A stretch of DNA of 64,000 nt from Pseudoalteromonas piscicida (GTDB lineage: Bacteria; Pseudomonadota; Gammaproteobacteria; Enterobacterales; Alteromonadaceae). The stretch is from positions 2,795,501-2,859,500 of the forward strand of contig NZ_CP011924.1 in assembly GCF_000238315.3 (NCBI RefSeq), written 5' to 3'. The notes below the pieces were generated by a model. It had not been told where the DNA came from, did no database searches, and saw only the letters and a program-made list of their open reading frames with translations. The position numbers and the translations under genes are program-made. Positions 1 to 29,093 of this stretch are shown here, piece after piece (position 1 is the first letter of the stretch; each line of letters begins with the position of its first letter).

Positions 1-1806
1 TCCGCCCAAGAAACTAAAACAACTAAAGCCGTTAGCCAATCGGATGACAATGCCGCGTCGTTATTTGCAAAGGCGCAGAGTAAAGAAGGCGTTGCCAAAA
101 TCCAATTGCTATATGCTGCCAGAGACGCTGCTATCTTAGAAAAAGACTGGCAAATATTAGAGCAAATTGGTTTAGCGATGGAAGCTAAAGCCAGTGTTGA
201 TCATATTCAAAACAAATTATACATCGCACTTGCTCGCAAAGAATTGTCGCAGTATGCCAATGCGTTAGCCATCCTGAACACGCTAGAGGGTAGGCTCAAC
301 ACCCCTGAACACCAAGCTTGGTATGAGTATTTACTGGGTAGTATTTATGCCTCTCAGCAACTACCAAAAAAAGCGTTGGTTGAGTACTTTAAAGCGGCTG
401 ATATTGCCAATGAACATAACTTAGCGGTGGCTGGGTTAAACGAAGAGATTTGGCTCGCGCTACAGCAGCTATCAAGTTACGCCCTAGAGCGCTTTGATTC
501 TGGCTCTGTTTTACAGCGTGGTTGGGTGACGCTGGCTAAATATCAACAAATTTATTTGGGTTCGAGCGTCCAGCTCGACCAAGCCATGAATAATTGGCGT
601 CGCCGTTTTACTAATCACCCTGCGGTTGCTTTGCTGCCTAAAGATTTACAAGGCGCCGTTGCGCTTGAACCTTACCAAGTTAAAAGACTTGCGGTGTTAT
701 TACCACAATCTGGTGCGAGCGAGCGACTCGGCACAGCCTTGAAAAATGGTTTTTTAGCTGCCACCGACGAAGGGGCGATTGAAGAAGTCTTCTTCATTGA
801 TGAAATGGCATCCGAGTCTGAAATCGTAACGCAACTTGCTGAGGCAAATGTCGATTTTGTCATTGGTCCATTATTAAAATCCAACGTTGAAAAACTACTC
901 GCAGATACAGGTTTTGCGGCTTACCCCACCTTATTTTTAAATGCTCGCGAAACCCTTACGCCTAGCAGTAGTGAACAGTACTTTTTTGCGCTTAATCCTG
1001 AGCATGAAGTCGAGCAAGCAATGAAGCACTTTCTTGCTAAAGGCTATAAAAAACCCATGTTACTGGCTCCAGCGAATGCTTCTGGTAAGCGTTTAATTGA
1101 GTATTTTGATCAAGGTTGGAAACGCTACAGTGAGGCCGCACCAGAAGTGGGTTATTATACCAATAGTACCAACATGGCGGATGTCATCACGGATATTTTA
1201 GAGGTCGATGCATCCAAAGCACGCACTAGCGTCATCAAAAGTCTATTTCGCAAAGAGGTCAAAAGCGAAACACGCTCTAGACGCGACATTGATGCCATCT
1301 ATATTTTAGGTGATGCAATGGAAACTAGACTGCTCAAACCTTATTTAGACGTCAATGTCAGTACATTTGCCGATAGGATCCCTTTATATGCAAGCTCTCG
1401 CAGCTATAGTAAACAAATTGATGTTACTGATAAGGGCGATTTAGAAGGACTTTATTTTACCGAGCAACCTTGGATGCTACCGGGTGCTGTTGAAAAAGCA
1501 CCGCTTCGAGATGCCTATCAATCTTTATGGCCTGAGCAGGCCGACTTAGAGCAGCGCTTGTTTGCAATGGCATATGACGCCACGAATTTAGTCCCCGAGC
1601 TGCGCCAACTGGCTTGGCTCTCGGGTAAAAGTTTTGATGGCTTAACCGGCCAACTCAGCATTCGCGGTGGTAGTGATGTTGTGCGAAAGCTCAGTTGGGC
1701 ACAGTATCATAATAAACAAATTCGTTTGGTGAGCTTAGATGAACAGCCTCCACTACCATTATTTATGCAACAAGAGAAACCTGCGGGAGACTCTTTGATC
1801 AGATAG
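1..1806 (+). CDS. lpoA: LpoA, outer-membrane lipoprotein activator of PBP1A (5' partial)
   Basis: LpoA (LppC/YraM family) sits in the outer membrane and reaches across the periplasm to stimulate the peptidoglycan synthase PBP1A. The frame is open from base 1, so the signal peptide and lipobox lie outside the window; 601 residues are visible, against about 680 in E. coli. The first 190 visible residues are helical and TPR-like. From about residue 220 (a segment reading RLAVLLPQSG) the protein takes the periplasmic-binding-protein-like LppC fold. A TTG at 106 is in frame but is unlikely to be the start, because coding continues upstream of it. It is followed at once by yraN, diaA and dolP, the same order as in E. 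coli, which supports the identity. Confidence 0.93.
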   Translation, partial: SAQETKTTKAVSQSDDNAASLFAKAQSKEGVAKIQLLYAARDAAILEKDWQILEQIGLAMEAKASVDHIQNKLYIALARKELSQYANALAILNTLEGRLNTPEHQAWYEYLLGSIYASQQLPKKALVEYFKAADIANEHNLAVAGLNEEIWLALQQLSSYALERFDSGSVLQRGWVTLAKYQQIYLGSSVQLDQAMNNWRRRFTNHPAVALLPKDLQGAVALEPYQVKRLAVLLPQSGASERLGTALKNGFLAATDEGAIEEVFFIDEMASESEIVTQLAEANVDFVIGPLLKSNVEKLLADTGFAAYPTLFLNARETLTPSSSEQYFFALNPEHEVEQAMKHFLAKGYKKPMLLAPANASGKRLIEYFDQGWKRYSEAAPEVGYYTNSTNMADVITDILEVDASKARTSVIKSLFRKEVKSETRSRRDIDAIYILGDAMETRLLKPYLDVNVSTFADRIPLYASSRSYSKQIDVTDKGDLEGLYFTEQPWMLPGAVEKAPLRDAYQSLWPEQADLEQRLFAMAYDATNLVPELRQLAWLSGKSFDGLTGQLSIRGGSDVVRKLSWAQYHNKQIRLVSLDEQPPLPLFMQQEKPAGDSLIR

Positions 1807-1815
1807 GATATCTGT

Positions 1816-2181
1816 ATGTTTAAAGGACTATTTAGCAATACACGAAGTAAGGGCGAGCATTTTGAGTTGATTGCGGAGCAATTCTTGGTAAAACAAGGAC
1901 TAACCCCCGTCACCAGAAACTATCTCTGTAAATACGGAGAGATAGATCTCATTATGCAAGAGTCGCAAACCTTAGTGTTTATTGAAGTAAAGTATCGCGA
2001 TAGCAGCCACTTTGGTGGCGCAATTAACGCACTATCAAAAACTAAGCTTCAAAGATTAAAGCGTAGTATTTATAATTATTTAGCACAGCAAAATTTGCAT
2101 AACACGCAACTTAGAGTCGACTTTGTTGCCATTCAAGGGGCCGATCCCCCTGAAATAAACTGGATTAGAAATATTTTTTAG
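1816..2181 (+). CDS. yraN: YraN family protein (UPF0102), nuclease-fold
   Basis: This 121-residue protein belongs to the UPF0102/YraN family, which has a restriction-endonuclease-like fold and no firmly established role. The family signatures are visible: GEIDLI at residues 41-46 and FIEVKYR at 55-61, which supply the acidic and lysine residues of a PD-(D/E)XK-type site. It starts with ATG nine bases after the lpoA stop and ends one base before diaA, so it is probably translated as part of an lpoA-yraN-diaA-dolP transcript. Length is normal for the family. The nuclease activity is inferred from the fold, not shown here. Confidence 0.92.
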   Translation: MFKGLFSNTRSKGEHFELIAEQFLVKQGLTPVTRNYLCKYGEIDLIMQESQTLVFIEVKYRDSSHFGGAINALSKTKLQRLKRSIYNYLAQQNLHNTQLRVDFVAIQGADPPEINWIRNIF

Positions 2182-2182
2182 C

Positions 2183-2770
2183 ATGCAAGAATCTATAAAG
2201 TCTATATTTACAGAGTCAATTCAAGCGCAGATAGCGGCGGGCGAAGTATTGCCTAAAGCGCTAGAAACCGCAGCTATGACTATGGCTCAGAGCCTGATCA
2301 ATGGCAATAAAATCATCTGCTGCGGCGCGCCAAGTAATCATATGTTGGCACACCACTTCGCAACCATCTTAAGCAACTTTTACGAAACCGAACGCCCGTG
2401 TCTGCCCGCGATTGCACTAACGAATGAGCAATATAATCTGGCGTCACCAGAAAATGGCAAAGCCAGAGAGCGCTTTGCCAAGCAAATACGCGCATTCGCG
2501 CAGCAAGGAGACTTGCTGGTGGCGTATGCCATAAACGGGCAAGAAAAGGCGGTTATTGGCGCAGTGGAAGCTGCCCTTACTAGAGATATGAAAGTCATCG
2601 CGTTAGTTGGCGATGATGGTGGTGAAATCACCGGCCTATTGGGCCCACAGGACGTAGAGATCCGGATCCCAAGTAAACGCCCAAGCAGGATAATCGAGTC
2701 ACAACTATTCAATACTCACTGTTTAAGTGAGCTAATCGACGCAATTTTATTCCCTCAGGACGAAGTATGA
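2183..2770 (+). CDS. diaA: DiaA, SIS-domain DnaA initiator-associating protein
   Basis: This 195-residue protein is a single SIS (sugar isomerase) domain, close in length to E. coli DiaA (196). DiaA forms a tetramer that binds DnaA and promotes timely initiation at oriC. The family is related to phosphoheptose isomerase GmhA, which is the alternative call. Position between yraN and dolP favours DiaA. A glycine-rich sugar-phosphate-like segment (IICCGAPSNHMLAHHFA, residues 45-61) and a second segment (DLLVAYAINGQEKAVI) are visible. The ATG begins two bases after the yraN stop, and the TGA overlaps the dolP start, so the genes are translationally linked. Confidence 0.88.
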   Translation: MQESIKSIFTESIQAQIAAGEVLPKALETAAMTMAQSLINGNKIICCGAPSNHMLAHHFATILSNFYETERPCLPAIALTNEQYNLASPENGKARERFAKQIRAFAQQGDLLVAYAINGQEKAVIGAVEAALTRDMKVIALVGDDGGEITGLLGPQDVEIRIPSKRPSRIIESQLFNTHCLSELIDAILFPQDEV

Positions 2771-3333
2771 TGATGAGAATAACCTCTTTACTTGCCGCCA
2801 TCTTGTTACTACAAGGGTGTGCTGCTGCGGTAGTTGCTGGTACAGCCGGTGCGGTGTCTGCTGCAAATGATAGACGCACTATCGGTGCACAAATTGACGA
2901 TAACAATATCGAGATCAAAGGCACGCTTGCCATCAAAGAGATTAAGCGCCTTGCAGACCATGCCAATATCACGCTAGTGAGTGTTAATGGCATAGTATTG
3001 ATGATTGGTCAAGTCACTAATCAAGAAATGAAAACGGAAGCTGAGCGTGCGCTACGGAACGTTGCTGGGATTAAGCAAGTACATAATCAGTTGAGAATAA
3101 GCTCAAACATCGGCATCACGACGCAAACACATGATACTTGGCTGACCTCTAAAGTTAAAACCAAATTACTCGCGGCCGACGAAGTCAATGGCGCAAATAT
3201 TAAGGTAGTTACCGAGAATGCCGAAGTGTTCTTAATGGGCTTAGTCTCTAAACAAGAAGCAAACTCAGCGGTAGAAATCGCCAGAAATATTAATGGTGTA
3301 AAACGTGTGATTAAAGCCTTTGAGTACATCTAA
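2767..3333 (+). CDS. dolP: DolP (YraP), double-BON-domain outer-membrane lipoprotein
   Basis: DolP helps keep the outer membrane intact and acts in the envelope stress network. The 188-residue protein opens with a short signal peptide and a lipobox, LLLQGC, giving a lipidated Cys18. Two BON domains follow, about residues 50-115 and 125-188, each with the family's conserved glycine and hydrophobic pattern. E. coli DolP has 191 residues. The start lies in an ATGATGATG run, so the exact first Met could be any of three; I use the first, which overlaps the diaA stop in an ATGA arrangement. A strong hairpin terminator follows 11 bases after the stop. Confidence 0.92.
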   Translation: MMMRITSLLAAILLLQGCAAAVVAGTAGAVSAANDRRTIGAQIDDNNIEIKGTLAIKEIKRLADHANITLVSVNGIVLMIGQVTNQEMKTEAERALRNVAGIKQVHNQLRISSNIGITTQTHDTWLTSKVKTKLLAADEVNGANIKVVTENAEVFLMGLVSKQEANSAVEIARNINGVKRVIKAFEYI

Positions 3334-3344
3334 ACAATAGCCAT

Positions 3345-3373
3345 AAAAAAACCTGCATCCGCAGGTTTTTTTA
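3345..3373. terminator. Bidirectional terminator between dolP and sspB
   Basis: A perfect stem (AAAAAACCTGC, loop ATCC, GCAGGTTTTTT) has A-runs on one side and T-runs on the other, so it can stop transcription from both dolP (plus) and sspB (minus). The two genes converge here. Confidence 0.9.
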
Positions 3374-3796
3374 TTTTATCACTCGAAGGTGAGAACCTTT
3401 TTTCTTTTCAGGTTCTGGCTTAGTCTCTGGCGATTGTGAGACGTCCGTCTCTTCTACCAAATCAAACTCTTCATCTTCAAAGATTTCTTCTTCAGGTGTA
3501 AATACCGTCCCTTCACCGTTTTCTCTTGCATAGATAGCCAATACTGCACCGTTAGGCACATATACCTGCATCGGTTGACCACCAAACCGAGCGTTAAAGC
3601 TCAGCGCTTGATTGTCCATAGAGAAATTCGTCACAGCAGACGGGCTTACGTTCAACACAATTTGCCCTTCTTGCACAAATTGTGTTGGAACCTGTACCGA
3701 GGGAAAGTCTGCGTTCACCACTAAATGCGGTGTACATTCGTTATCAACAATCCACTCGTAAAACGCGCGTAGTAAGTAAGGACGATTAGACGTCAT
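3371..3796 (-). CDS. sspB: SspB, ClpXP adaptor (stringent starvation protein B)
   Basis: SspB delivers ssrA-tagged proteins to the ClpXP protease. The 141-residue protein has the globular tag-binding domain at about residues 1-105 (opening RPYLLRAFYEWIVDN), then an acidic flexible linker (about 108-130), then a C-terminal tail, LRVIK, which matches the ClpX-docking module (LRVVK in E. coli). Its ATG overlaps the last base of sspA, so the two genes form the usual sspAB pair. It ends at a shared bidirectional terminator. Confidence 0.95.
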   Translation of the reverse strand: MTSNRPYLLRAFYEWIVDNECTPHLVVNADFPSVQVPTQFVQEGQIVLNVSPSAVTNFSMDNQALSFNARFGGQPMQVYVPNGAVLAIYARENGEGTVFTPEEEIFEDEEFDLVEETDVSQSPETKPEPEKKKGSHLRVIK

Positions 3797-4422
3797 TACG
3801 ATCTGATCTCACGCTCTGCATCCGTTAGCGATGCTTGGAATGAGTCACGCTCAAATAAACGCAGCATGTATTCTTTTAGCTCTTTGCTACCAGCACCATT
3901 CAGCTCAATACCAAGCTGTGGTAAACGCCAAAGTAGTGGAGCTAAATAACAATCAACTAAGCTGAACTCTTCACTCATGAAGTAAGGTGCTTCATTGAAG
4001 ATAGGTGCTACAGCTAATAGTGCTTCAGTTAACTCTTTACGAGCTAGTACAGCTTCATCACCACCCGAAGAGACCTTTTCAGCAAGTGAATACCAGTCAG
4101 TTTCAATGCGGTGCATCATTAAACGACTACGACCACGCATTACTGGATATACAGGCATCAGAGGAGGATGCGGGAAGCGCTCGTCTAGATACTCCATAAT
4201 GATATTCGCTTGGTACAAGCCAAGCTCACGATCGATTAGCGTAGGAACAGTGCCATACGGGTTAATCTCGTGTAGAGCTTCTGGTAAGTTGTCCTTTTCA
4301 GCCTGATGAATATCAACACTTACACCTTTCTCAGCAAGTACAATACGTACCTGGTGACTGTACATACAGTTTGACCCAGAAAAAAGTGTCATTACAGGGC
4401 GCTTATTGGCAGCAACGGCCAT
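3796..4422 (-). CDS. sspA: SspA, stringent starvation protein A
   Basis: SspA is a glutathione-S-transferase-fold protein that binds RNA polymerase and takes part in starvation and acid-stress gene control. The N-terminal thioredoxin-like part (about residues 10-85) contains TLFSGSNCMYSHQVRIVLAEKG, and an all-helical GST C-domain follows. I place the start at 4422 rather than at the upstream in-frame codon at 4434. GGAGGT lies just ahead of this ATG, and the protein then begins MAVAANKR exactly as in E. coli. It lies downstream of petABC, in the standard rplM-rpsI-petABC-sspAB order. Confidence 0.95.
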   Translation of the reverse strand: MAVAANKRPVMTLFSGSNCMYSHQVRIVLAEKGVSVDIHQAEKDNLPEALHEINPYGTVPTLIDRELGLYQANIIMEYLDERFPHPPLMPVYPVMRGRSRLMMHRIETDWYSLAEKVSSGGDEAVLARKELTEALLAVAPIFNEAPYFMSEEFSLVDCYLAPLLWRLPQLGIELNGAGSKELKEYMLRLFERDSFQASLTDAEREIRS

Positions 4423-4470
4423 GCCTACCTCCATTAAAAAACTAAAAGTAATTAAATCACTTTAAACAGC

Positions 4471-4489
4471 AAAAGGGGCGAACGCCCCT
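4471..4489 (-). terminator. Terminator after petC
   Basis: GGGGCG-TT-CGCCCC hairpin followed on the minus strand by TTTTGC, between the petC stop and the sspA start. It probably separates the petABC and sspAB transcripts, at least partly. Confidence 0.65.
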
Positions 4490-4518
4490 ATTGCAAAAAT
4501 TACCTTTGAATATTCAAA

Positions 4519-5256
4519 TTAATGAACATCTCTCCAGTATTCTTTCTTCAAGAAGAATGCCAGGATGAAGAAGATAACTAAGAAACCAATAACCTTAATA
4601 CCTAAAGCTTCTGACTCTAGGCGAGAAGGCTCACCTACATAAGCTAAGAAGTTTGTCAGGTCACGTGCTGCTTGGTCATATTCATCAACACTCATCTCAC
4701 CGGTACCATCTGTTTCAGTGCCGACAACTTTAGTCACTGTGTGACCGTGTTCTTCCACTTCTTCAGTGATCGGTGTTGGCAAGCCTTGTAACTCTTGTAG
4801 TACGTGAGGCATACCCACCAATGGGAAAACAACGTTGTTCACACCAAATGGGCGAGACTCATCTTTATAGAATGACTTCAAGTAAGTATAGATGTAGTCC
4901 GGAGACTTAACACGAGAGATAAGTGTTAAGTCCGGTGGCGCAGCACCAAACCATTTTGCTGCATCATCTTTAGCCATAGAGTTTTTAATATGGCTACCTA
5001 CTTTTGAACCATCGAAAATAAGCGTTTCTTGACCAATTTCAGTTGGAATACCGATGTCACGGAAAGTACGCTCATAACGCTGATATTGCATTTGGTGACA
5101 GCCAAGGCAGTAGTTCATAAATAACTTAGCGCCACGCTGTAAAGATGCTTTATCAGTTAAGTCGTTGTTTGCTTCCATCAAAGGTACTGATGGGCCCGCT
5201 GCCATCGATAACGTTGGCAACAATGCGAATAAACCGATTACTAGCTTTTTCATCAT
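4519..5256 (-). CDS. petC: Cytochrome c1 subunit of the bc1 complex
   Basis: Cytochrome c1 passes electrons from the Rieske protein to soluble cytochrome c at the periplasmic face. This 245-residue protein has a cleavable signal peptide (about residues 1-19, ending MAA), the haem-binding CLGCH at 50-54, and a methionine in VGMPHVL that can be the sixth haem ligand. A C-terminal membrane anchor (LGIKVIGFLVIFFILAFFL) ends in a basic tail. It overlaps the petB stop by four bases, so translation is coupled. A His/Glu-rich insertion (EEVEEHGHTVTKVV) lies before the anchor. Confidence 0.96.
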   Translation of the reverse strand: MMKKLVIGLFALLPTLSMAAGPSVPLMEANNDLTDKASLQRGAKLFMNYCLGCHQMQYQRYERTFRDIGIPTEIGQETLIFDGSKVGSHIKNSMAKDDAAKWFGAAPPDLTLISRVKSPDYIYTYLKSFYKDESRPFGVNNVVFPLVGMPHVLQELQGLPTPITEEVEEHGHTVTKVVGTETDGTGEMSVDEYDQAARDLTNFLAYVGEPSRLESEALGIKVIGFLVIFFILAFFLKKEYWRDVH

Positions 5257-6554
5257 TTCGTCAACCTCGTTGGTAGTGGCTTTGTCTTCTCGTTTTTACT
5301 GTAGAAGAATAGCAACACGAAGAACATAAAATAAGTTACTGTCGTAATTTGCGACAATAGCGTTTTAAAGTCAGTTTGTGGTGTTGCACCAATCCAACCA
5401 AGGATAACGAATGTGACAACAAACTGAGCAATGTTCAACTTATGGAAACCACAACGGTAGCGAATTGAACGAACCGAACCACGGTCAATCCAAGGCAGTA
5501 GTGCCAATGCTACGATTGAAGCGCCCATTGCTAGTACACCAATCAACTTATCAGGAATAGCACGAAGGATCGCGTAGAATGGCGTAAAGTACCAAACTGG
5601 GAAAATGTGCTCTGGCGTTTTTAGCGGGTTTGCAGCTTCAAAGTTTGGCGCTTCAAGGAAGAAACCATTCATTTCTGGTGCAAAGAACACAATTGCGCAG
5701 AAGAAAATTAAGAAGCCAGCAACACCTAAGACATCTTTTACTGTGTAGTAAGGGTGGAATGGAATTGCATCCACAATATCTTTTTTATCCGTGTAGTATT
5801 CATGGAATTTAAACTTAGGTTTATCTTCCTCAGCTACAGAGCCTTTCTTGCGCTTGATCTCAACACCGTCAGGGTTGTTTGAGCCTACTTCGTGCAGTGC
5901 GACAATATGAAGGAATACTAAGATAACCAGTACTAATGGTAGTGCAATAACGTGTAGTGCAAAGAAGCGGTTAAGCGTTGCACCAGAAATAACGTAGTCA
6001 CCACGGATCCAAAGCGTTAGGTCATCACCAATTACAGGGATTGCACCGAATAATGAAATGATTACCTGAGCACCCCAGAAAGACATCTGACCCCATGGCA
6101 ATAAGTAGCCCATGAAAGCTTCAGCCATTAGTGCTAGGAAGATAAACATACCGAACAACCACAGTAATTCACGTGGCTTTTGATAAGAACCGTAGATCAT
6201 ACCGCGGAACATGTGAAGATAGACCACGATAAAGAATGCGGATGCGCCGGTAGAGTGTAGGTATCGCAATAACCAACCATATTCAACATCACGCATGATG
6301 TATTCTACTGATGCAAATGCACCTTCAGCAGAAGGTACAAAGTTCATGGTTAGCCAGATACCCGTTACAATCTGGTTTACCAGTACTAGAATGGCGAGTG
6401 AACCAAACAAATACCAGAAGTTAAAGTTTTTTGGCGCTGGGTATTGAGCAATGTGCATATTCCAGACGCGAGTCATCGGAATACGAGCATCAATCCAATC
6501 AACAACTTTACCCACAACGCCCGTATTTGCTGCTTTATCTACATTAACAGACAT
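5253..6554 (-). CDS. petB: Cytochrome b subunit of the bc1 complex
   Basis: This is the membrane-embedded quinol-oxidising subunit, a full-length fused cytochrome b of 433 residues with about eight membrane spans. The four haem ligands are seen as H100, H114, H201 and H216. The Qo-site motif reads PVWY (in FPVWYFTPFYAILRAIP) rather than the mitochondrial PEWY; this variant is known in other proteobacteria. The loop between the haem-binding half and the C-terminal half is long and charged (about residues 225-265, rich in Lys and Asp). The gene shares its first base with the petA stop and overlaps petC. Confidence 0.97.
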   Translation of the reverse strand: MSVNVDKAANTGVVGKVVDWIDARIPMTRVWNMHIAQYPAPKNFNFWYLFGSLAILVLVNQIVTGIWLTMNFVPSAEGAFASVEYIMRDVEYGWLLRYLHSTGASAFFIVVYLHMFRGMIYGSYQKPRELLWLFGMFIFLALMAEAFMGYLLPWGQMSFWGAQVIISLFGAIPVIGDDLTLWIRGDYVISGATLNRFFALHVIALPLVLVILVFLHIVALHEVGSNNPDGVEIKRKKGSVAEEDKPKFKFHEYYTDKKDIVDAIPFHPYYTVKDVLGVAGFLIFFCAIVFFAPEMNGFFLEAPNFEAANPLKTPEHIFPVWYFTPFYAILRAIPDKLIGVLAMGASIVALALLPWIDRGSVRSIRYRCGFHKLNIAQFVVTFVILGWIGATPQTDFKTLLSQITTVTYFMFFVLLFFYSKNEKTKPLPTRLTK

Positions 6555-7144
6555 TATGCAACCCCTTCTTCTTCACCTACCAAAATGGTAGTGTCGTCAA
6601 TAAAGGTATACGGAGGGATCTCTAAGTTTAGAGGTGCAGGTACGTTTTGGAATACGCGCCCCGCCATATCAAACTTCGAACCGTGACAAGGACAGAAGAA
6701 ACCACTATCAGTGCCTTCTACTTTTTCACCAAAGCTTCCGTTAAGGAAAGATGGTGAACATCCTAAGTGAGTACAAATCCCAACTGCGACGAAAAGCTCA
6801 GGTCGCTTAGAACGGAAACCGTTCTGCGCAGATGCCAACTGCTGTGGCTCTTCAGAGTTAGGATCACGAAGTTGGTCTTCGTGTTGCTTCATTTGTTCTA
6901 GCATTTTTGGTGTACGATTAACAATCCAAACTGGTTTGCCTCGCCACTCAACACGAATAAGTTGTCCAGACTCAAGCTTGCTGATATCTACTTCTACAGG
7001 CGCACCTGCAGATTTAGCTCGCTCACTTGGATTCCAGGACGCAATAAAAGGAACAGCAGCTCCAACCGCACCAACGCCACCTACAACAGAGGTAGCGATA
7101 GTTAAAAAGCGACGTCGGCTGTTGTCTACAGGCGCATTGCTCAT
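6554..7144 (-). CDS. petA: Rieske iron-sulfur subunit of the bc1 complex
   Basis: This 196-residue protein carries the 2Fe-2S cluster that takes the first electron from quinol. Cluster ligands are in CTHLGC (C124, H126, C129) and CPCHG (C151, C153, H154), so the two cluster ligands of each type and the disulfide pair are all present. The N-terminus has a twin-arginine-type signal anchor, SRRRFLT (residues 9-15), followed by a hydrophobic, glycine-rich segment. It is the first gene of petABC, and a candidate promoter lies about 90-120 bases upstream. Confidence 0.97.
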   Translation of the reverse strand: MSNAPVDNSRRRFLTIATSVVGGVGAVGAAVPFIASWNPSERAKSAGAPVEVDISKLESGQLIRVEWRGKPVWIVNRTPKMLEQMKQHEDQLRDPNSEEPQQLASAQNGFRSKRPELFVAVGICTHLGCSPSFLNGSFGEKVEGTDSGFFCPCHGSKFDMAGRVFQNVPAPLNLEIPPYTFIDDTTILVGEEEGVA

Positions 7145-7232
7145 CCACTTATCTCCACTTGATTCCCAACACTTGCTATATTGAGAACATCAGTTACAGC
7201 AGGTTAATTTAAGAAATTACAAAATAGACGCG

Positions 7233-7261
7233 ATCATAAATAAATACCTTGATTAAAACAA
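7233..7261 (-). promoter_or_regulatory. petA: Candidate sigma-70 promoter for petABC
   Basis: Read on the minus strand, TTGTTT and TATGAT are separated by exactly 17 bases, about 90 bases ahead of the petA ATG. The -10 box is one base off consensus and the -35 box two to three. No operator was recognised. Confidence 0.45.
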
Positions 7262-7610
7262 GGTTATTCCAGATCCATGCCCGAATAAACCCGCAGAAAA
7301 TCATCTATGATTACTTCGAGCATGAAACCGAGTATTTATGATATCGCATCTGACACAACAATATACTGACTAAGATCAACCCCCCGACTAAGGATACGCA
7401 CCAAATCGCGTGACTGGATCTCAGGTCTTTCTACTTGCTTCGCCAATTGTAGCAAAAAAAACCGCCAAGTTACCGCTCGAATTGCACTAATTATTATATT
7501 TATTGAACTTTTTTAACTCGACGCGATATTTTTGAGCAAATAAGTAGGACAAAACGAATTAGATACCTCGTAAATACGAGAGATTGATGTACATAGGAGA
7601 AGCTAAAAAC

Positions 7611-7637
7611 AAAAAACCCAGCATAAGCTGGGTTTTT
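7611..7637 (-). terminator. Terminator after rpsI
   Basis: ACCCAGC-ATAA-GCTGGGT hairpin with A/T tracts on both sides, 22 bases beyond the rpsI stop. The minus-strand T-tract is the longer one. Confidence 0.88.
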
Positions 7638-7658
7638 GAATTCTTGAAACGTAATAAA

Positions 7659-8048
7659 TTAACGCTTAGAGAACTGTGTCTTCTTACGTGCTTTCTTAAG
7701 ACCAACTTTCTTACGCTCAACTTTACGAGCATCGCGAGTAACAAAGCCAGCTTTACGTAGAGCTGGACGTAGAGACTCGTCAAACTCCATTAGTGCACGT
7801 GTGATACCGTGACGGATAGCACCCGCTTGACCAGTTGTACCACCACCTGCAACAGTGATGTATAGGTCAAACTTTTCTGTCATTTCAACTAGCTCTAGAG
7901 GCTGACGAACAACCATGCGAGAAGTTTCACGACCGAAGAACTCTTCTAAAGAGCGCTTATTGATTACGATGTTGCCAGTGCCTGGGCGTAGGAATACGCG
8001 AGCACTTGAACTTTTACGACGACCTGTACCGTAGTATTGATTTGCCAT
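7659..8048 (-). CDS. rpsI: 30S ribosomal protein S9 (uS9)
   Basis: The 129-residue protein is full length. The conserved opening [14 protein letters not shown], the central [15 protein letters not shown] and the C-terminal tail ending SKR are all visible; in uS9 this tail reaches the P-site tRNA in the 30S subunit. It lies 11 bases downstream of rplM with a purine-rich AGGAGC ahead of its ATG, and the pair is one of the most conserved ribosomal operons. Confidence 0.98.
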
Positions 8049-8059
8049 GATAGTGCTCC

Positions 8060-8488
8060 TTAAATGTCTAGAACCTGAGGCTGCTGTGCAGCGTGGTTGT
8101 GCTCGTTACCAGCGTAAACTTTAAGTTTACGGAACATTTCACGACCTAGAGGACCGCGAGGTAACATGCCTTTAACCGCTTTCTCGATGATCATTTCAGG
8201 CTTTTTAGCTTGAAGTTTCTCAAAGTTGATAGACTTAAGGCCACCTGGGTAACCAGAGTGAGCATAATACATTTTGTCCTGAGTTTTGTTACCAGTTACA
8301 GTAACTTTCTCAGCGTTGATTACGATGATGTAATCACCAGTGTCAACGTGTGGAGTATACTCAGCTTTGTGCTTACCGCGAAGGCGACGAGCGATTTCAG
8401 TAGCGATGCGACCTAAAGTTTTACCTTCAGCGTCAACTACGTACCAGTCACGTTTTACAGTTTCTGGTTTAGCAACAAACGTTTTCAT
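8060..8488 (-). CDS. rplM: 50S ribosomal protein L13 (uL13)
   Basis: This 142-residue protein is the same length as E. coli L13, an early-assembly protein of the 50S subunit. The opening [20 protein letters not shown] and [19 protein letters not shown] are typical. In E. coli, L13 represses its own rplM-rpsI mRNA; the leader here is about 150 nucleotides from the candidate promoter, long enough for such control, but I could not identify a specific binding structure. Confidence 0.98.
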
Positions 8489-8843
8489 TATAAAAATCCA
8501 AAGTTTTCAATTTTAAAACCACAGGCAGTCCTTGGACTACCGCTCTACTTGTATTTGCTTTAACCCCTTCGAGTTTAAGACTTTTATGCCGCTCAAGTCA
8601 GTGGCTAAGCCGACGAGGGCAATAGAACGCAACGTGGCAGGCCGCGGATTATAGCAAGCCTTCTGGGTGAAAACCAGCGCTTGGTGCTTTTTTCTACAAG
8701 AAAATCTGAAGAATTTCGAAAAAAAATAGAAAAGGCAAAAAATCCAACGAAATGACGACGTGTGCGTGACAAGGACTCGTTCAAATAGGATATTTACAAA
8801 CACCCACACCGAACCAGTCCTCTTAACAAAAAAGTAATTGCCG
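8489..8843. other. Region between rplM and zapE
   Basis: Gene-free. It holds the rplM promoter and its roughly 150-base leader (8489-8641), then an A/T-rich stretch with runs of A (about 8690-8745) and the end of zapE. An open frame at 8537-8809 overlaps the promoter and looks like chance. Confidence 0.6.
8648..8676 (-). promoter_or_regulatory. rplM: Candidate strong promoter of rplM-rpsI
   Basis: On the minus strand there is a perfect TATAAT with an extended TGC just before it, and a weak -35 (TGGTTT) 17 bases upstream. The bases after the -10 box are CCGCGGCC, a GC-rich discriminator typical of promoters shut down by ppGpp. That fits a ribosomal protein operon. Confidence 0.7.
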
Positions 8844-9932
8844 TTAGGCTAAATGCTCTCTTGCTAAATATTCATGGGATTGCATTTCTTGCAAGCGGCT
8901 AATGCAGCGTTTGAACTCAAAATTCAGTGTACCTTCGGTATAAAGTTCAGTAATAGGCGCTGCAGCTGAGATGATAAGCGTCACATTACGCTCATAAAAC
9001 TCATCGACGAGCGCAATAAAGCGCCTTGCCGCATCATCGTTTTGCTGACCCATTTGCTTCACATTAGATAGAATCACTGTGTTATATAAGCGACTGATCT
9101 CCATGTAATCCACTTGCGAACGAGCGGTTTCACATAGCGCAGGGAAATCAAACATAACAATACAATCTGACACCATTCGAGTTTGGATCATTCGACCTTC
9201 AATCTCAATCGCTTGTCCGGCTTTACCCGGCTCCGGAGAGAGTTTGTTAAAGTAGTCGAATAAGTTTTCATCCGCTTGTTTATCAAGTGGGCTGTGAAAA
9301 ATTTCCGCTTGTTCCAACGTGCGCAAGCGATAGTCAATACCCGAGTCCACATTAACTACCTCAGTATTGGCTTTTACCAATTCAATGGCGGGTAAGAATC
9401 GTGCACGCTGCAAGCCATTTTTATACAAATCATCAGGCACAATATTCGATGTGACCACTAACACGATACCGCGCGCAAACAGCGCCTGCATTAATCCACC
9501 CAGTAACATGGCATCAGTGATGTCTTGAACGAAAAATTCATCGAAACAGATAATGTCAGTTTCAGATTTGAACGTATCAGCGATGCTTTCCAGAGGGTTT
9601 TTCACTTCATTAAGCTTTTTCAGCTCTGCGTGAACACGATGCATAAAGCGGTGAAAATGCACCCGCATTTTACGCTCCGTCGGCAACGCATCGTAAAAGG
9701 TATCAACCAGATAAGTTTTACCGCGCCCTACTCCACCCCAAAAGTACAACCCTTTCACTTTTGGCGGCTCAGCTTTACCAAACAAGCGCGAGAAGAAGTT
9801 TGGTTTGACCGGGGGCTGATTGATAAGGTCGTCATACAATCGCTGTAAATGCTTTACGGCATTTTCTTGCGCGCTGTCATATTGAAAATCATCACGTTGT
9901 AGATCTTGCTGATATTTTTCCCAAGGCGTCAT
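8844..9932 (-). CDS. zapE: ZapE, AFG1-family ATPase of cell division
   Basis: ZapE is a cytoplasmic ATPase that acts on the FtsZ ring during constriction in E. coli. The 362-residue protein has a Walker A motif, GGVGRGKT (residues 66-73), a Walker B segment, IICFDEFFV, and the AFG1-type LYFWGGVGRGKTYLVDTFY context. Length is close to the E. coli protein (375). It diverges from zapG over about 120 bases, as in many gammaproteobacteria. Confidence 0.94.
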   Translation of the reverse strand: MTPWEKYQQDLQRDDFQYDSAQENAVKHLQRLYDDLINQPPVKPNFFSRLFGKAEPPKVKGLYFWGGVGRGKTYLVDTFYDALPTERKMRVHFHRFMHRVHAELKKLNEVKNPLESIADTFKSETDIICFDEFFVQDITDAMLLGGLMQALFARGIVLVVTSNIVPDDLYKNGLQRARFLPAIELVKANTEVVNVDSGIDYRLRTLEQAEIFHSPLDKQADENLFDYFNKLSPEPGKAGQAIEIEGRMIQTRMVSDCIVMFDFPALCETARSQVDYMEISRLYNTVILSNVKQMGQQNDDAARRFIALVDEFYERNVTLIISAAAPITELYTEGTLNFEFKRCISRLQEMQSHEYLAREHLA

Positions 9933-19025: not shown

Positions 19026-19997
19026 GTGACAACGAACCCATTTATTGATTCTGCAAATCAAGTTTTTGCTACTGAACTTGCAGCAATAGAAGAAGTGCAA
19101 CAGTTTGTTGATCAACAATTTGTAAAAGCCTGTGAAATTATGTTTGGCTGCCAAGGTCGCATCATCGTGATTGGCATGGGTAAGTCCGGCCACATCGGAA
19201 ACAAAATCGCAGCGACACTCGCAAGTACTGGCAGCCCTGCATTTTTTGTTCATCCAGGAGAAGCAAGTCACGGCGACTTGGGTATGATCACCAAAGATGA
19301 TGTGGTTTTGATGATCTCCAACTCAGGGGAAACCCAAGAGGTGATCTCAATCCTGCCTGTGATAAAGCGCTTAGGGGCCCCCGTTATTTCTATGACAGGC
19401 AACCCGAGCTCTACAATGGCTCGTAATGCGACGGTTCACCTTTGTGTTAAGGTATCAAAAGAAGCCTGCCCATTAGGACTTGCACCCACGGCGAGCACCA
19501 CAGCTACGCTAGTGATGGGCGATGCACTCGCGGTTGCGCTACTTGAAGCCAGAGGCTTTACGGCTGATGATTTTGCACTTTCCCATCCAGGTGGTAGTTT
19601 AGGAAGACGTCTACTACTAACCGTTGCTGATGTCATGCATCAAGGGGATGCAATCCCTATGGTTAAAAGTCATTGCACAGTTAAAGAAGCTTTATTTGAA
19701 ATGTCAGCTAAAAGTTTAGGTATGACGGCAATCGTAGATGAAAGCTCGCAATTGCAAGGTATTTTTACCGATGGCGACTTGCGCCGTATTATCGAACAAA
19801 AGATCGATATTCACACCACCCCAATCACGCAAGTTATGACGGCTAAAAGTACGACGGCACGCGCCGATATGCTCGCAGCAGAGGTACTCAATATCATGGA
19901 AACCAAACGAATTAATGGCTTGATTGTGGTAAACAAAAACAACATACCGGTTGGCGCCTTGAATACGCAAGATTTACTTAGAGCGGGGGTGCTGTAA
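19026..19997 (+). CDS. kdsD: KdsD, D-arabinose 5-phosphate isomerase
   Basis: KdsD converts ribulose 5-phosphate to arabinose 5-phosphate, the first step to Kdo for lipopolysaccharide. The 323-residue protein has an N-terminal SIS domain (about 40-170, with GMGKSGHIGNKIAATLASTGSPAFF and SNSGETQEV) and two CBS domains (about 205-320). The start is GTG with AAGG about nine bases upstream. Its stop shares one base with the kdsC ATG. Confidence 0.96.
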   Translation: MTTNPFIDSANQVFATELAAIEEVQQFVDQQFVKACEIMFGCQGRIIVIGMGKSGHIGNKIAATLASTGSPAFFVHPGEASHGDLGMITKDDVVLMISNSGETQEVISILPVIKRLGAPVISMTGNPSSTMARNATVHLCVKVSKEACPLGLAPTASTTATLVMGDALAVALLEARGFTADDFALSHPGGSLGRRLLLTVADVMHQGDAIPMVKSHCTVKEALFEMSAKSLGMTAIVDESSQLQGIFTDGDLRRIIEQKIDIHTTPITQVMTAKSTTARADMLAAEVLNIMETKRINGLIVVNKNNIPVGALNTQDLLRAGVL

Positions 19998-23931: not shown

Positions 23932-24219
23932 ATGCAACTAAATCTAACTGGTCGCCATGTAGAAATTACTGACTCATTAAGAGACTATGTCACCAACAAG
24001 TTTGCGAAGCTAGAAAGGCACTTTGATCATATCAATAACGTGCATGTGATCCTTGATGTCGAGAAGCTAGTACAAAAAGCAGAAGCAACATTACACGTAA
24101 ACGGCGGCGAGCTATTTGCATCAACAGAGCATCAAGATATGTATGCCGCAATTGATGGCCTTATCGACAAGCTAGATCGTCAAGTTATTAAACACAAAGA
24201 GAAGCTCACTCGACACTAA
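23932..24219 (+). CDS. hpf: HPF, short-form ribosome hibernation factor
   Basis: HPF binds the 30S decoding region and converts ribosomes into inactive 100S dimers in stationary phase. Two ATGs are six bases apart. The second (23932) is chosen because AAGGA stands nine bases ahead of it and the product then begins MQLNLTGRHVEI, as in E. coli. The 95-residue product has the S30AE fold with ATLHVNGGELFAS and DMYAAIDGLIDKLDRQV. It lacks the C-terminal dimer domain of long HPF, so it is the short form. Confidence 0.96.
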   Translation: MQLNLTGRHVEITDSLRDYVTNKFAKLERHFDHINNVHVILDVEKLVQKAEATLHVNGGELFASTEHQDMYAAIDGLIDKLDRQVIKHKEKLTRH

Positions 24220-24220
24220 G

Positions 24221-24679
24221 ATGAAATTAAGTGAATTGGTGAACAAGGACTGCAGTAAAGCTGCGGTCCTTTTTAATAGCAAAAAACGTATTTTAGAATA
24301 CATCAGCGAACTGGCTCATAGCCAAATTCCAAATACTAGTCAGCATGCTATCTTAGACGCTTTAATGGCCCGAGAGAAATTAGGCAGCACAGGGATCGGT
24401 AAAGGTATTGCCATTCCTCATGGTCGACTTGAAGGTTTGGATAAAATCCTTGCAATGGTGCTTGTTAGCGAGCAAGGGATCCAGTTTGAAGCCATAGATA
24501 AGCAGCCTGTCGATATTTTTGTCGCGTTCATCGTACCCGAAGGTGATAATCAACAGCACCTGAAGACCTTAGCGGCGATTGCTGATACACTCAAAGACAA
24601 GTCTTTTTGCAAAATGCTTAGGCAAGCAAAAAGTGATAACGAGTTATATGCAGTGATCCAAGGTGAACTTGATGAGTGA
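24221..24679 (+). CDS. ptsN: PtsN, EIIA-Ntr of the nitrogen PTS
   Basis: PtsN is the terminal phospho-acceptor of the regulatory nitrogen phosphotransferase system and controls potassium and other functions. The 152-residue protein shows the EIIA fold with the phosphorylated histidine H67 in AIPHGRL. It begins one base after hpf and its TGA overlaps the rapZ start. NPr, its phosphoryl donor, is encoded two genes downstream and, here, again further on. Confidence 0.96.
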   Translation: MKLSELVNKDCSKAAVLFNSKKRILEYISELAHSQIPNTSQHAILDALMAREKLGSTGIGKGIAIPHGRLEGLDKILAMVLVSEQGIQFEAIDKQPVDIFVAFIVPEGDNQQHLKTLAAIADTLKDKSFCKMLRQAKSDNELYAVIQGELDE

Positions 24680-25538
24680 TGAAGAAAAAGGACTCGAGCT
24701 TATCATTATCAGTGGCCGCTCAGGCTCTGGTAAATCTGTAGCGCTTCGAGTATTGGAAGACTTAGGCTACTATTGTGTAGATAACATTCCAGTCAATTTA
24801 CTGCCGTCTTTAGTCCGCAGCGTTTCCGACAATTATAATAAAATTGCAGTCAGTATTGATGTTAGAAACTTGCCTAAAGAACAGGACGAGTTTAATGACA
24901 TTCTTGAATACTTGCCTGGTTTCGCCAAACCTACCCTGTTTTATTTAGACAGTGACGATCAAACCCTGATAAAACGCTTCTCAGAAACACGCCGTTTGCA
25001 CCCTCTTTCACTACATAATCTTCCATTAGATGTTGCGATAAAGAAAGAACGGGAATTGTTAGACGTGTTGATCACACGCGCTGATTTTCTCATTGATACT
25101 GCAGGCCTGAGCGTTCATCAACTTGCGGAAGATATCCGCGAAAAAATCTTAGGTAAGAAAGACAAACAACTCATTATTACCTTTGAATCTTTCGGCTTTA
25201 AACACGGCATCCCAAAACAAGCGGATTACGTTTTTGATGCGCGCTTTTTGCCCAACCCACATTGGGAGCCTGAGCTTAAGCCGCTAACTGGCCTAGATCA
25301 GCCAGTCAAAGACTATTTGTCGAGTCACAGCATCGTGCAAAAGTTTACTTGGCAGATCCAAACCTTTGTACAAACTTGGTTACCACACTTAGAGCGTAAT
25401 AATCGCAGTTATCTAACGATCGCAATAGGATGTACTGGTGGACAACATCGCTCGGTATACTTAGCGCAAACCATTGGCGAGCGATTTGCAAAAACCCATC
25501 CCAACGTCAAAATTCGCCACCGTGAGCAAGAGGGTTAA
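24672..25538 (+). CDS. rapZ: RapZ, RNase adapter (complete copy)
   Basis: RapZ binds the GlmZ/GlmY small RNAs and guides RNase E to GlmZ, so it sets GlmS and thus glucosamine 6-phosphate levels. The 288-residue product has Walker A GRSGSGKS at 15-22 in an N-terminal kinase-like domain (about 1-155), and the C-terminal RNA-binding domain with the TGGQHRSVYL loop. ATG at 24672 is chosen over a GTG at 24663. Bases from 24845 onward (from codon 59) are repeated exactly at 26102. Whether GlmY/GlmZ exist in this organism cannot be judged from the window. Confidence 0.95.
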   Translation: MSDEEKGLELIIISGRSGSGKSVALRVLEDLGYYCVDNIPVNLLPSLVRSVSDNYNKIAVSIDVRNLPKEQDEFNDILEYLPGFAKPTLFYLDSDDQTLIKRFSETRRLHPLSLHNLPLDVAIKKERELLDVLITRADFLIDTAGLSVHQLAEDIREKILGKKDKQLIITFESFGFKHGIPKQADYVFDARFLPNPHWEPELKPLTGLDQPVKDYLSSHSIVQKFTWQIQTFVQTWLPHLERNNRSYLTIAIGCTGGQHRSVYLAQTIGERFAKTHPNVKIRHREQEG

Positions 25539-26101
25539 ATGTTAGAAGATACGTTTTTAATCCAGAACAAGCTCGGCCTGCACGCTCGAGCAGCGACGGT
25601 TCTTGCGCAATTAGCGACCCAATTTGATGCCGAAGTGACCTTATATCAAGGAGACAAAAGTGCTGCTGCTGACAGCGTACTAGCGCTGTTGTTACTTGAA
25701 AGCAGCCAAGGAAAAGAAGTACGAGTGGTTTGTGAAGGTCCCGATGCTCAGTATGCACTAGACGCCATTGGTGGACTAATAGAAAATAAATTTAATGAAT
25801 CCGAGTAACTTGGGTTACTAGCGCCCAGATAGCACTAAGGCCCGATTCATTTATTCCCTGCTAATCTCCCCCTCCGTAACCAGACTGGTATAATACCAAT
25901 TAGTCTTAATACTTGCTCAATTTGAAGGAGCAAATCTGACGCTGACTGTGTTAAAAATTTTTCATTTAGAACAACTAAATAACCTGAGCTGCGGATAATT
26001 AATGCCTTTCTAGCAGCCAGTTTCAACGCAGTTAGCGCTAAAACTTGCTGGCTAGACAAGGAAAAAACTAAGTTGTGCTTTAGCAACAATGAGTTGGAAC
26101 A
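24845..26101 (+). repeat. Tandem duplication unit 1 (1257 bp)
   Basis: First copy of a 1257-bp direct repeat. It covers codons 59-288 of rapZ, complete ptsO, and 293 bases of non-coding DNA. By eye it is identical to unit 2 throughout, including non-coding DNA. Only one base (T) is shared at the two breakpoints, so there is no long homology to explain the event. Confidence 0.97.
25539..25808 (+). CDS. ptsO: NPr (PtsO), HPr-like phosphocarrier, copy 1
   Basis: NPr carries phosphate from EI-Ntr (PtsP) to PtsN. The 89-residue protein is an HPr-fold protein with the phosphorylated H15 in LGLHARAAT and the regulatory-loop region DKSAAADSVLALLLLESSQGKEVRVVCEG. It begins one base after the rapZ stop. 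An identical gene lies at 26796-27065. Confidence 0.95.
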   Translation: MLEDTFLIQNKLGLHARAATVLAQLATQFDAEVTLYQGDKSAAADSVLALLLLESSQGKEVRVVCEGPDAQYALDAIGGLIENKFNESE

Positions 26102-26795
26102 TGCAGTCAGTATTGATGTTAGAAACTTGCCTAAAGAACAGGACGAGTTTAATGACATTCTTGAATACTTGCCTGGTTTCGCCAAACCTACCCTGTTTTA
26201 TTTAGACAGTGACGATCAAACCCTGATAAAACGCTTCTCAGAAACACGCCGTTTGCACCCTCTTTCACTACATAATCTTCCATTAGATGTTGCGATAAAG
26301 AAAGAACGGGAATTGTTAGACGTGTTGATCACACGCGCTGATTTTCTCATTGATACTGCAGGCCTGAGCGTTCATCAACTTGCGGAAGATATCCGCGAAA
26401 AAATCTTAGGTAAGAAAGACAAACAACTCATTATTACCTTTGAATCTTTCGGCTTTAAACACGGCATCCCAAAACAAGCGGATTACGTTTTTGATGCGCG
26501 CTTTTTGCCCAACCCACATTGGGAGCCTGAGCTTAAGCCGCTAACTGGCCTAGATCAGCCAGTCAAAGACTATTTGTCGAGTCACAGCATCGTGCAAAAG
26601 TTTACTTGGCAGATCCAAACCTTTGTACAAACTTGGTTACCACACTTAGAGCGTAATAATCGCAGTTATCTAACGATCGCAATAGGATGTACTGGTGGAC
26701 AACATCGCTCGGTATACTTAGCGCAAACCATTGGCGAGCGATTTGCAAAAACCCATCCCAACGTCAAAATTCGCCACCGTGAGCAAGAGGGTTAA
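26073..26795 (+). pseudogene. rapZ: Truncated rapZ copy joined to a new start
   Basis: This second copy keeps rapZ codons 59-288 unchanged but lacks codons 1-58, including the whole Walker A motif. At the junction it is fused in frame to ten codons of non-coding DNA that start with TTG at 26073. AAGGA at 26058-26062 lies ten bases ahead of that TTG, so a 240-residue protein could be made. The C-terminal domain, which in E. coli RapZ is sufficient for RNA binding, is intact. Without the N-terminal half it could not work as a normal adapter, but it might compete for RNA. Expression is unknown. Confidence 0.85.
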
Positions 26796-27358
26796 ATGTT
26801 AGAAGATACGTTTTTAATCCAGAACAAGCTCGGCCTGCACGCTCGAGCAGCGACGGTTCTTGCGCAATTAGCGACCCAATTTGATGCCGAAGTGACCTTA
26901 TATCAAGGAGACAAAAGTGCTGCTGCTGACAGCGTACTAGCGCTGTTGTTACTTGAAAGCAGCCAAGGAAAAGAAGTACGAGTGGTTTGTGAAGGTCCCG
27001 ATGCTCAGTATGCACTAGACGCCATTGGTGGACTAATAGAAAATAAATTTAATGAATCCGAGTAACTTGGGTTACTAGCGCCCAGATAGCACTAAGGCCC
27101 GATTCATTTATTCCCTGCTAATCTCCCCCTCCGTAACCAGACTGGTATAATACCAATTAGTCTTAATACTTGCTCAATTTGAAGGAGCAAATCTGACGCT
27201 GACTGTGTTAAAAATTTTTCATTTAGAACAACTAAATAACCTGAGCTGCGGATAATTAATGCCTTTCTAGCAGCCAGTTTCAACGCAGTTAGCGCTAAAA
27301 CTTGCTGGCTAGACAAGGAAAAAACTAAGTTGTGCTTTAGCAACAATGAGTTGGAACA
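26102..27358 (+). repeat. Tandem duplication unit 2 (1257 bp)
   Basis: Second copy of the 1257-bp direct repeat, abutting unit 1 with no spacer. Sequence diverges from unit 1 at 27360 (T here, G at 26103). The absence of any difference I can see implies a very recent event, or an error of assembly. Confidence 0.97.
26796..27065 (+). CDS. ptsO: NPr (PtsO), HPr-like phosphocarrier, copy 2
   Basis: Identical at the protein level to the copy at 25539-25808, with H15 intact in LGLHARAAT, and a complete frame with start and stop. It begins one base after the stop of the truncated rapZ copy, so translation coupling could carry over if that frame is translated. No terminator that I can see separates it from the upstream operon, so it may be co-transcribed and double the NPr dose. 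Confidence 0.9.
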   Translation: MLEDTFLIQNKLGLHARAATVLAQLATQFDAEVTLYQGDKSAAADSVLALLLLESSQGKEVRVVCEGPDAQYALDAIGGLIENKFNESE

Positions 27359-27381
27359 TTCCTTATCCAAACCTCAGGTTA
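27237..27381. repeat. Inverted-repeat element, 145 bp, at the duplication breakpoint
   Basis: Two 20-base arms (27237-27256 and 27362-27381) are inverted copies matching at 16 of 20 positions (core ACCTGAG/CTCAGGT with TTATCC). The left arm is also present in unit 1 at 25980-25999, but there the right arm is missing, cut off by the junction. This shows that the intact form is the downstream one. Confidence 0.5.
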
Positions 27382-27412
27382 AATAGCAAAATTTTCGCCG
27401 TGTTATCGACAA

Positions 27413-27570
27413 GATTTTCTCGCTTCAAAATAGATCACTTAATTAAGCGAATTGGTATAATAAGTCTCTCATAATTAAGCGTAAACCTTGGTAGTTCCCA
27501 ATAAACTGAGTTACACTGTAATACCAATTTAGGTTTCTTTCGTGCAGTAAAGCGAGTTGCCGAGAAAATC
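27413..27570. repeat. Nested inverted-repeat element, 158 bp
   Basis: Outer arms GATTTTCTCG (27413-27422) and CGAGAAAATC (27561-27570) are a perfect inverted pair. Inside them, AATTGGTAT (27450-27458) and ATACCAATT (27521-27529) are a second perfect pair. This nested layout resembles a MITE or other short palindromic genome repeat. A related string, TGGTATAATACCA, occurs at 25886-25898 and in the duplicate. Confidence 0.45.
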
Positions 27571-27734
27571 CTATTTTATCGTTGTGTACACCTTTAACGT
27601 GTATTAACGATAGCAACCCACCAGCAGAAACAACACGAATAAAATTCAAATTAAGAAATTGATTTCTGCGATAAAGTAAATGAATTGGGTTAACTTCATC
27701 ACGTTAGCCAACATTATTATCAAAAAGGATGCCT

Positions 27735-29093
27735 ATGCCTGAAGTATTTGAACAAGACTACACACTGGAACAACTCCAAAAGGTAACCAAAGCCTTAAAC
27801 AGTGGTCAGTTTGTTCAAGTTAGGCGTATGCTCGCAGAAACAGCTCCTTGTGATACAGCACTGCTTTTAGAATCATCTCCTCATAAAGTTCGCTCTATGC
27901 TGTGGCAGCTCGTTGACCCAGATATCCAAGGGGATGTTTTAGAGGAACTGTCAGAGGACGTAAGACTTGGGATCATCGCCCAGATGGAGCCGGAGCTAAT
28001 TGCTGCCGCTACAGAAGACATGGACGACGATGACCTTGGTGATGTCCTGAGAAGCCTGCCTGATACCGTCTACCAAGATGTTATTGGTGCGATGGATAGC
28101 CAAGATAGAGAACGTGCGACACAAGCATTGTCCTACAAGGAGCACTCGGCCGGTGCGCTAATGAGCACCGACACGGTCACTATTCGACCCGATGTTACCT
28201 TAGAAGTTGTATTTAGATATCTACGTCTTAAAGGCGAATTGCCAGACGGTACGGACGAGTTGTATGTAGTTGATAAAGACAACTGCTTTTTAGGTACGCT
28301 GCCAGTCAATACCTTATTAACTAAGTCTCCTGACAGTATGGTTCGAGACTTGATGGATGAAGATAAGGAAACGATCCCTATCTCCATGGATGAATCTGAA
28401 GTGGCGCAGCTTTTTGAGCGTCATAACTGGATCTCAGCTCCTGTAGTTGACGATAACGCCCATTTGCTTGGTCGTGTCACCATTGATGACGTTGTTGACG
28501 TCATCCGTGAAGATGCTGAGCACAGCTTGTTAAGTATGGCAGGTCTTGAAGATGAAGAAGACACCTTTGCGCCAGTTCTAAAAAGTAGCCAGCGCCGCTC
28601 TATTTGGCTTGGGATTAACCTGTTAACCGCCTTAATGGCAGCGTTTGTTGCAAGCTTCTTCGAAGGTACTCTGGATATTTTACCTATTCTCGCGGTGTTA
28701 AATGGCATAGTACCAAGTATGGGTGGCGTTGCCGGTAGCCAAACGCTAACCTTAGTGATCCGTGGTATTGCCCTTGGTCATATTAACCAGACTAACCAAA
28801 AGTTTTTAATGGGTAAAGAGCTGGCGATAGGTGCCTTAAATGGCGTGCTGTGGTCTGTCTTGATCGCAGGGGTTATTGCTATATGGCAGTGGGATTTTAC
28901 ACTCGGTGCTGTAATTGCCTTCGCGATGTTTATGAACTTAGTCGCTGCAGGTATCGCGGGAGCCAGTATTCCAATTATGTTAAAGAAAATGAATATCGAT
29001 CCAGCGCTAGCTGGTAGTGTGGTACTAACAACGGTTACTGATATTGTCGGGATCTTTGCATTCCTTGGCACCGCCACTTGGTTATTAGTGTAG
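27735..29093 (+). CDS. mgtE: MgtE-family magnesium transporter
   Basis: MgtE is a magnesium-gated inner-membrane channel. The 452-residue protein has a superhelical N-domain (about 25-130), a CBS pair (about 135-255), a linking helix and five membrane spans from about residue 285, with PSMGGVAGSQTLTLVIRGIALG in the pore region. I choose the second of two ATGs (27735), because AAGGA at 27725-27729 overlaps the first (27729) and is well placed for the second. This gene is not part of the rpoN operon in E. coli. Confidence 0.93.
   Translation: MPEVFEQDYTLEQLQKVTKALNSGQFVQVRRMLAETAPCDTALLLESSPHKVRSMLWQLVDPDIQGDVLEELSEDVRLGIIAQMEPELIAAATEDMDDDDLGDVLRSLPDTVYQDVIGAMDSQDRERATQALSYKEHSAGALMSTDTVTIRPDVTLEVVFRYLRLKGELPDGTDELYVVDKDNCFLGTLPVNTLLTKSPDSMVRDLMDEDKETIPISMDESEVAQLFERHNWISAPVVDDNAHLLGRVTIDDVVDVIREDAEHSLLSMAGLEDEEDTFAPVLKSSQRRSIWLGINLLTALMAAFVASFFEGTLDILPILAVLNGIVPSMGGVAGSQTLTLVIRGIALGHINQTNQKFLMGKELAIGALNGVLWSVLIAGVIAIWQWDFTLGAVIAFAMFMNLVAAGIAGASIPIMLKKMNIDPALAGSVVLTTVTDIVGIFAFLGTATWLLV

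Follow-up and report, generated by a model that had tools for sequence, protein, structure and literature searches.

The 1257-bp tandem repeat at the rapZ-ptsO locus is very probably an artefact of assembly, an overlap between two pieces that was left unmerged; the assembly step itself we infer from the pattern of the sequence alone. The cell itself most likely has one copy each of rapZ and ptsO. The exactness of the copies, the repeat at the breakpoint, the recurrence of such duplications along the contig, the common side of the repeat and the absence of the second copy from relatives all point to this reading. Specifically, one assembled stretch would have ended just past ptsO, within a palindromic repeat that exists in multiple copies (element B, which sits inside element A). 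The next piece, be it a patch, an amplicon, a read or a contig, would have started 1257 bp upstream, within rapZ, and continued through the repeat. An end-to-end join without trimming would then have written the common 1257 bp twice. Elsewhere on the contig, pieces overlapping by about 1 to 1.6 kb would likewise have been joined untrimmed where the sequence stopped in repeats.

In the window (the whole 64-kb stretch of DNA analyzed here), positions 24845 to 26101 and 26102 to 27358 are identical at 1257 of 1257 bases by direct sequence comparison, with no spacer between them, an exact match far beyond chance. Identity at a lag of 1257 runs over 24845 to 26102 (1258 bases); thus a single base (T) is common to both breakpoints. 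The initial annotation had described two direct, abutting, identical copies sharing one base and had excluded homologous recombination as their origin, and this anatomy and exclusion stand. All features named at the locus lie on the + strand. The unit comprises the 3′ part of rapZ, ptsO, the left half of element A, and the first 122 bp of element B. The complete rapZ (24672 to 25538; RapZ-like_N and C-terminal domain) extends across the left boundary of the first unit copy, i.e., the left breakpoint is inside rapZ, and is followed by the first ptsO (25539 to 25808), which encodes NPr. In the second copy, the rapZ open frame is 5′-truncated (26073 to 26795), its RapZ-like_N match running from profile position 50 of 158 onward, while ptsO (26796 to 27065) is again complete. 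Both NPr frames match PF00381 with 88.4 bits each, so that the second NPr gene is indeed intact in the assembled sequence, as had been claimed. A search of the window for further direct repeats with an exact 30-mer found none besides the 1257-bp pair, and Rfam gave no match with E up to 0.1 over 24000 to 28000. Tandem Repeats Finder returned no row for the repeat; the longest period it handles is 500, and the unit is 1257 bp.

Past the end of ptsO, two dispersed, MITE-like repeats are nested: element A (left half 27148 to 27238, right half 27380 to 27463) is split by element B (27237 to 27381), a 145-bp insertion with inverted terminal repeats. The right breakpoint (27358/27359) falls inside element B, 23 bases short of its right end, a feature that the initial annotation had not noticed. 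A piece of the same element (25980 to 26101) is cut off at the middle junction. The B of the window is a 145-bp variant of a usual 198-bp form, in which about 22 bases of the element's own arm, inverted, take the place of the center, as if by hairpin template switching. A third dispersed family, C (about 268 or 316 bp; C1:3493658-3493925, C1:1782947-1783262, and others), also occurs in the related genomes G028 and G014, and one C copy is interrupted by B (C1:1526895-1527414).

Searches with A and B in the genome itself revealed truncated and complete copies about 1 to 1.5 kb apart at several places. The contig carrying the window (C1) has 4,253,375 bp, and a second contig (C2), a chromid, has 1,234,804 bp. 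The start (1 to 9300) and end (from ~4251729) of C1 are the same repetitive region; a simple exact overlap of more than 20 bases between the two ends was not found. We scanned for repeats of at least 200 bases at a lag of at least 300 in a targeted set of A/B loci from these searches (33 stretches of C1 and 18 of C2) and in a systematic set, which covered 220 kb of C2 and, with the window counted in, 1.174 Mb of C1, of which 8 kb was N. In total, 1.46 Mb of C1 was read, about a third of the contig. Set aside before counting were a 450-bp array with variants (L063), a short-period array (L183), a non-abutting pair with lag 1044 and one mismatch (L218), and cases in which the repeat was shorter than the lag (L187 and L201; in G028, L289 and L296). 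The 450-bp array (C1 ~3563286-3565100; L063:4287-6108) consists of about four slightly differing copies that each contain an A element, and it may be a real array.

The 1.46 Mb contained 22 exact tandem duplications, including that of the window, and a 23rd with one mismatch; in other words, the window's duplication is accompanied by 22 others, 21 of them exact, which the initial annotation had likewise missed. Thirteen of the exact ones came from stretches picked for A or B and nine, including the window's, from the systematic set. Their units measure 568, 962, 1004, 1017, 1084, 1085, 1091, 1096, 1097, 1118, 1121, 1130, 1157, 1245, 1254, 1257, 1274, 1357, 1393, 1493, 1546, and 1617 bp (median 1125.5; 21 of 22 within 962 to 1617 bp) and sum to 25,966 bp. 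The other units start at C1 positions 58258, 187586, 680277, 933852, 1123397, 1252774, 1305076, 1407348, 1780924, 1920139, ~2139372, 2321560, 2464243, 2659843, 2780579, 2985786, 3149530, 3337028, 3377390, 3491167, 4209390, and 4214112. The 23rd duplication (981 bp, ~C1:2139372) came from the systematic sample, and its repeat is a C element; the sole mismatch is located in the repeat, no more than 35 bases from the repeat-side end of the unit, as might arise if the end of a contig had picked up bases of a different repeat copy. Three more duplications, at about 426, 2429, and 3069 kb of C1, are suggested by C elements that occur there in pairs, one truncated and one complete. Outside the window, the systematic sample held nine duplications in 1.11 Mb, which extrapolates to about 34 for the whole of C1. 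The 22 further duplications probably reflect the same assembly fault as that proposed for the window.

Of the 22 exact cases, 10 have no base in common at the breakpoints, 11 have one, and one has two. Judged by an unsupervised copy count in the sampled genome, 16 of the 22 right junctions are crossed by a repeat, compared with 0 of the 22 left junctions and 11 of 400 random points. Probes for A, B, and C, the last derived from two of the duplicated loci, gave 17 of 22 right junctions (one abutting) and 0 of 22 left ones. Because 13 of the 22 lay in stretches selected for A or B, the systematic sample is the fairer one, and there the repeat lies at the right junction in five of nine and at the left in none (p 5e-6 versus random points); with the 23rd duplication added, the tally is five right, one left, and four neither. 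Right junctions outside the three families number five of 22. One adjoins a perfect microsatellite of about 76 7-bp units (ACTTCTT; C1:681413-681946) standing right behind the duplication, and another is exactly at the edge of the second tRNA-Ser gene (L245:19210); both are plausible places for a contig to end. This tRNA-Ser (gct) occurs twice (L245:18008-18100 and 19099-19191) only through the 1091-bp duplication. The right junctions of the units at C1:2321560, 3149530, and 4214112 show no nameable feature. Predicted folding at right versus left junctions differed little, with a nonsignificant p of 0.27 (paired) for 120 nt and a modest p of 0.025 for 220 nt. Therefore, "repeat" is a better predictor of the breakpoint than "hairpin".

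These properties could also be read as a real genome-wide process, in which palindromic repeats stall replication or get nicked and short exact tandem duplications ending at the repeat result. The chromosome, perhaps not the chromid, would then have recently gained some 34 real short exact duplications, their ends set by palindromic interspersed repeats and with no homology needed. Such a process would account for right junctions in repeats, several of them palindromic, for the 0 to 2 bp shared at the breakpoints, and, judged by identity, for the recent date of every duplication. However, the side of the repeat argues against it. Of the 17 repeat-spanned duplications, 16 have the repeat at the high-coordinate end, and only that at ~C1:2139372 has it at the low end (p 0.0003). 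With dnaA at C1:3286122 and GC skew switching sign at about 3.25 and 1.25 Mb, the 16 right-side cases fall on both replichores, six on one and ten on the other, one of the ten (1252774) being near the terminus. A stalled fork would make the side of the unit follow the direction of replication, but the side was constant on both replichores. It was the same, too, for both orientations of B, which at the junctions is forward in five cases and reverse in six. The side is thus tied neither to replication nor to the element, as either would switch sides. Untrimmed joins at repeats, in contrast, would predict one-sided repeats, which replication or transposition would not, since a left-to-right joining of pieces would leave the repeat side unchanged along the contig.

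The second contig and a sister-species genome (G028) also speak against a genome-wide process. No tandem duplication was found in the 388 kb of C2 scanned. A duplication at A or B was present in 10 of 33 A/B stretches of C1 versus 0 of 18 in C2 (p 0.007); the systematic C2 sample, for which 1.8 were expected (P of none 0.17), makes the absence weak if taken on its own. The scan of 537 kb of G028 likewise found no tandem duplication, against 4.4 predicted from the rate in C1 (P 0.013); 20 of its stretches were systematic and 15 chosen, 14 of the latter around B-like ends or other repeat hits and the last at a contig end. Yet both C2 and G028 carry the same elements. Of three further duplicated loci sought in G028 and G014, two (L077 and L247) have the unit as a single copy; at the third (L228), the unit region is without a counterpart in either genome, and only the 3′ flank and the repeats match. 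Furthermore, bacterial tandem duplications are generally unstable, so that about 34 coexisting ones would be odd. We therefore regard a real process of this kind as very unlikely.

Slightly less credible still is a single real and recent duplication of rapZ-ptsO, either segregating or selected for NPr dosage, which is the biological reading that the initial annotation had offered. Its second NPr gene is intact and identical to the first, as such a duplication would have it. However, the 22 similarly built duplications at unrelated sites on C1 make a locus-specific cause unnecessary, and a second NPr was seen in none of 80 related loci. In each of these 80, a search for the single-copy state proposed in the initial annotation found one match to NPr and one to the RapZ C-terminal domain, against two of each in the window. 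In seven comparisons with six genomes, a single rapZ-ptsO stretch matched both window copies every time. The insertion site itself varies: neither A nor B is present in the genomes of two relatives, A is present and B absent in two others (one being Pseudoalteromonas flavipulchra), and two more differ in the intergenic stretch, one of them with a diverged A-like match (77%) there. The suggestion of a recent, segregating, or dosage-selected event finds no support. A by-product of transposition of element B, one-ended or aberrant and copying the flank, would explain a breakpoint inside a B that is itself nested in A, but it merits hardly any credence, as the right breakpoints are scattered over many B positions rather than its ends, the same pattern occurs at families A and C, a microsatellite, and a tRNA gene, and the side is independent of the orientation of the element.

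An assembly error, which the initial annotation had named as its last alternative, is the reading that the evidence favors. The copies are exact in 22 of 22 cases and lack homology at their breakpoints; the breaks fall mostly in repeats, where contigs would be expected to end, with some junctions unexplained; and the duplications recur irrespective of gene content and are absent from relatives. Several observations weigh on the other side. The duplication at ~C1:2139372 has its repeat on the left, three of the five right junctions outside A, B, and C are featureless, and the local folding at right junctions is just weakly stronger. Exact identity, moreover, fits very recent real events too.

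The reading of an unmerged overlap averts a false claim of NPr duplication. By extrapolation, the false duplications on C1 probably number about 34 and total some 40 kb; they would surface as paralogues, as genes cut short, and as an additional tRNA. An exact tandem copy with one end in a dispersed repeat, and mostly on the same side along the contig, thus constitutes a cheap test for such errors that needs nothing but the sequence. If the duplications were real, the whole set would need a homology-free duplication process, which would be very interesting.

The elements at the breakpoint resemble prokaryotic MITEs. Element B is short, dispersed, and non-coding and has inverted terminal repeats, and element A shares the dispersal; both are short and occur at this site in some relatives only. 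Here, A and B mark the breakpoint. False duplications are a known assembly fault (PMC9516828), and tandem insertions in bacterial assemblies have been tabulated (PMC2397507). The false ("homotype") duplications described in the former resemble ours in that extra copies of single-copy sequence pass as gene gain. As that account presents them, they concern vertebrate assemblies and were recognized by reads and k-mers, whereas here the genome is bacterial and the copies are exact and abutting. In the portion of PMC2397507 concerned with mis-assembly by tandem insertion or expansion, diagnosis is by mate pairs and depth; relative to both sources, our case is made from sequence pattern. With the cases of PMC2397507, the duplication reported here shares its essential form, an extra tandem copy in a bacterial assembly.
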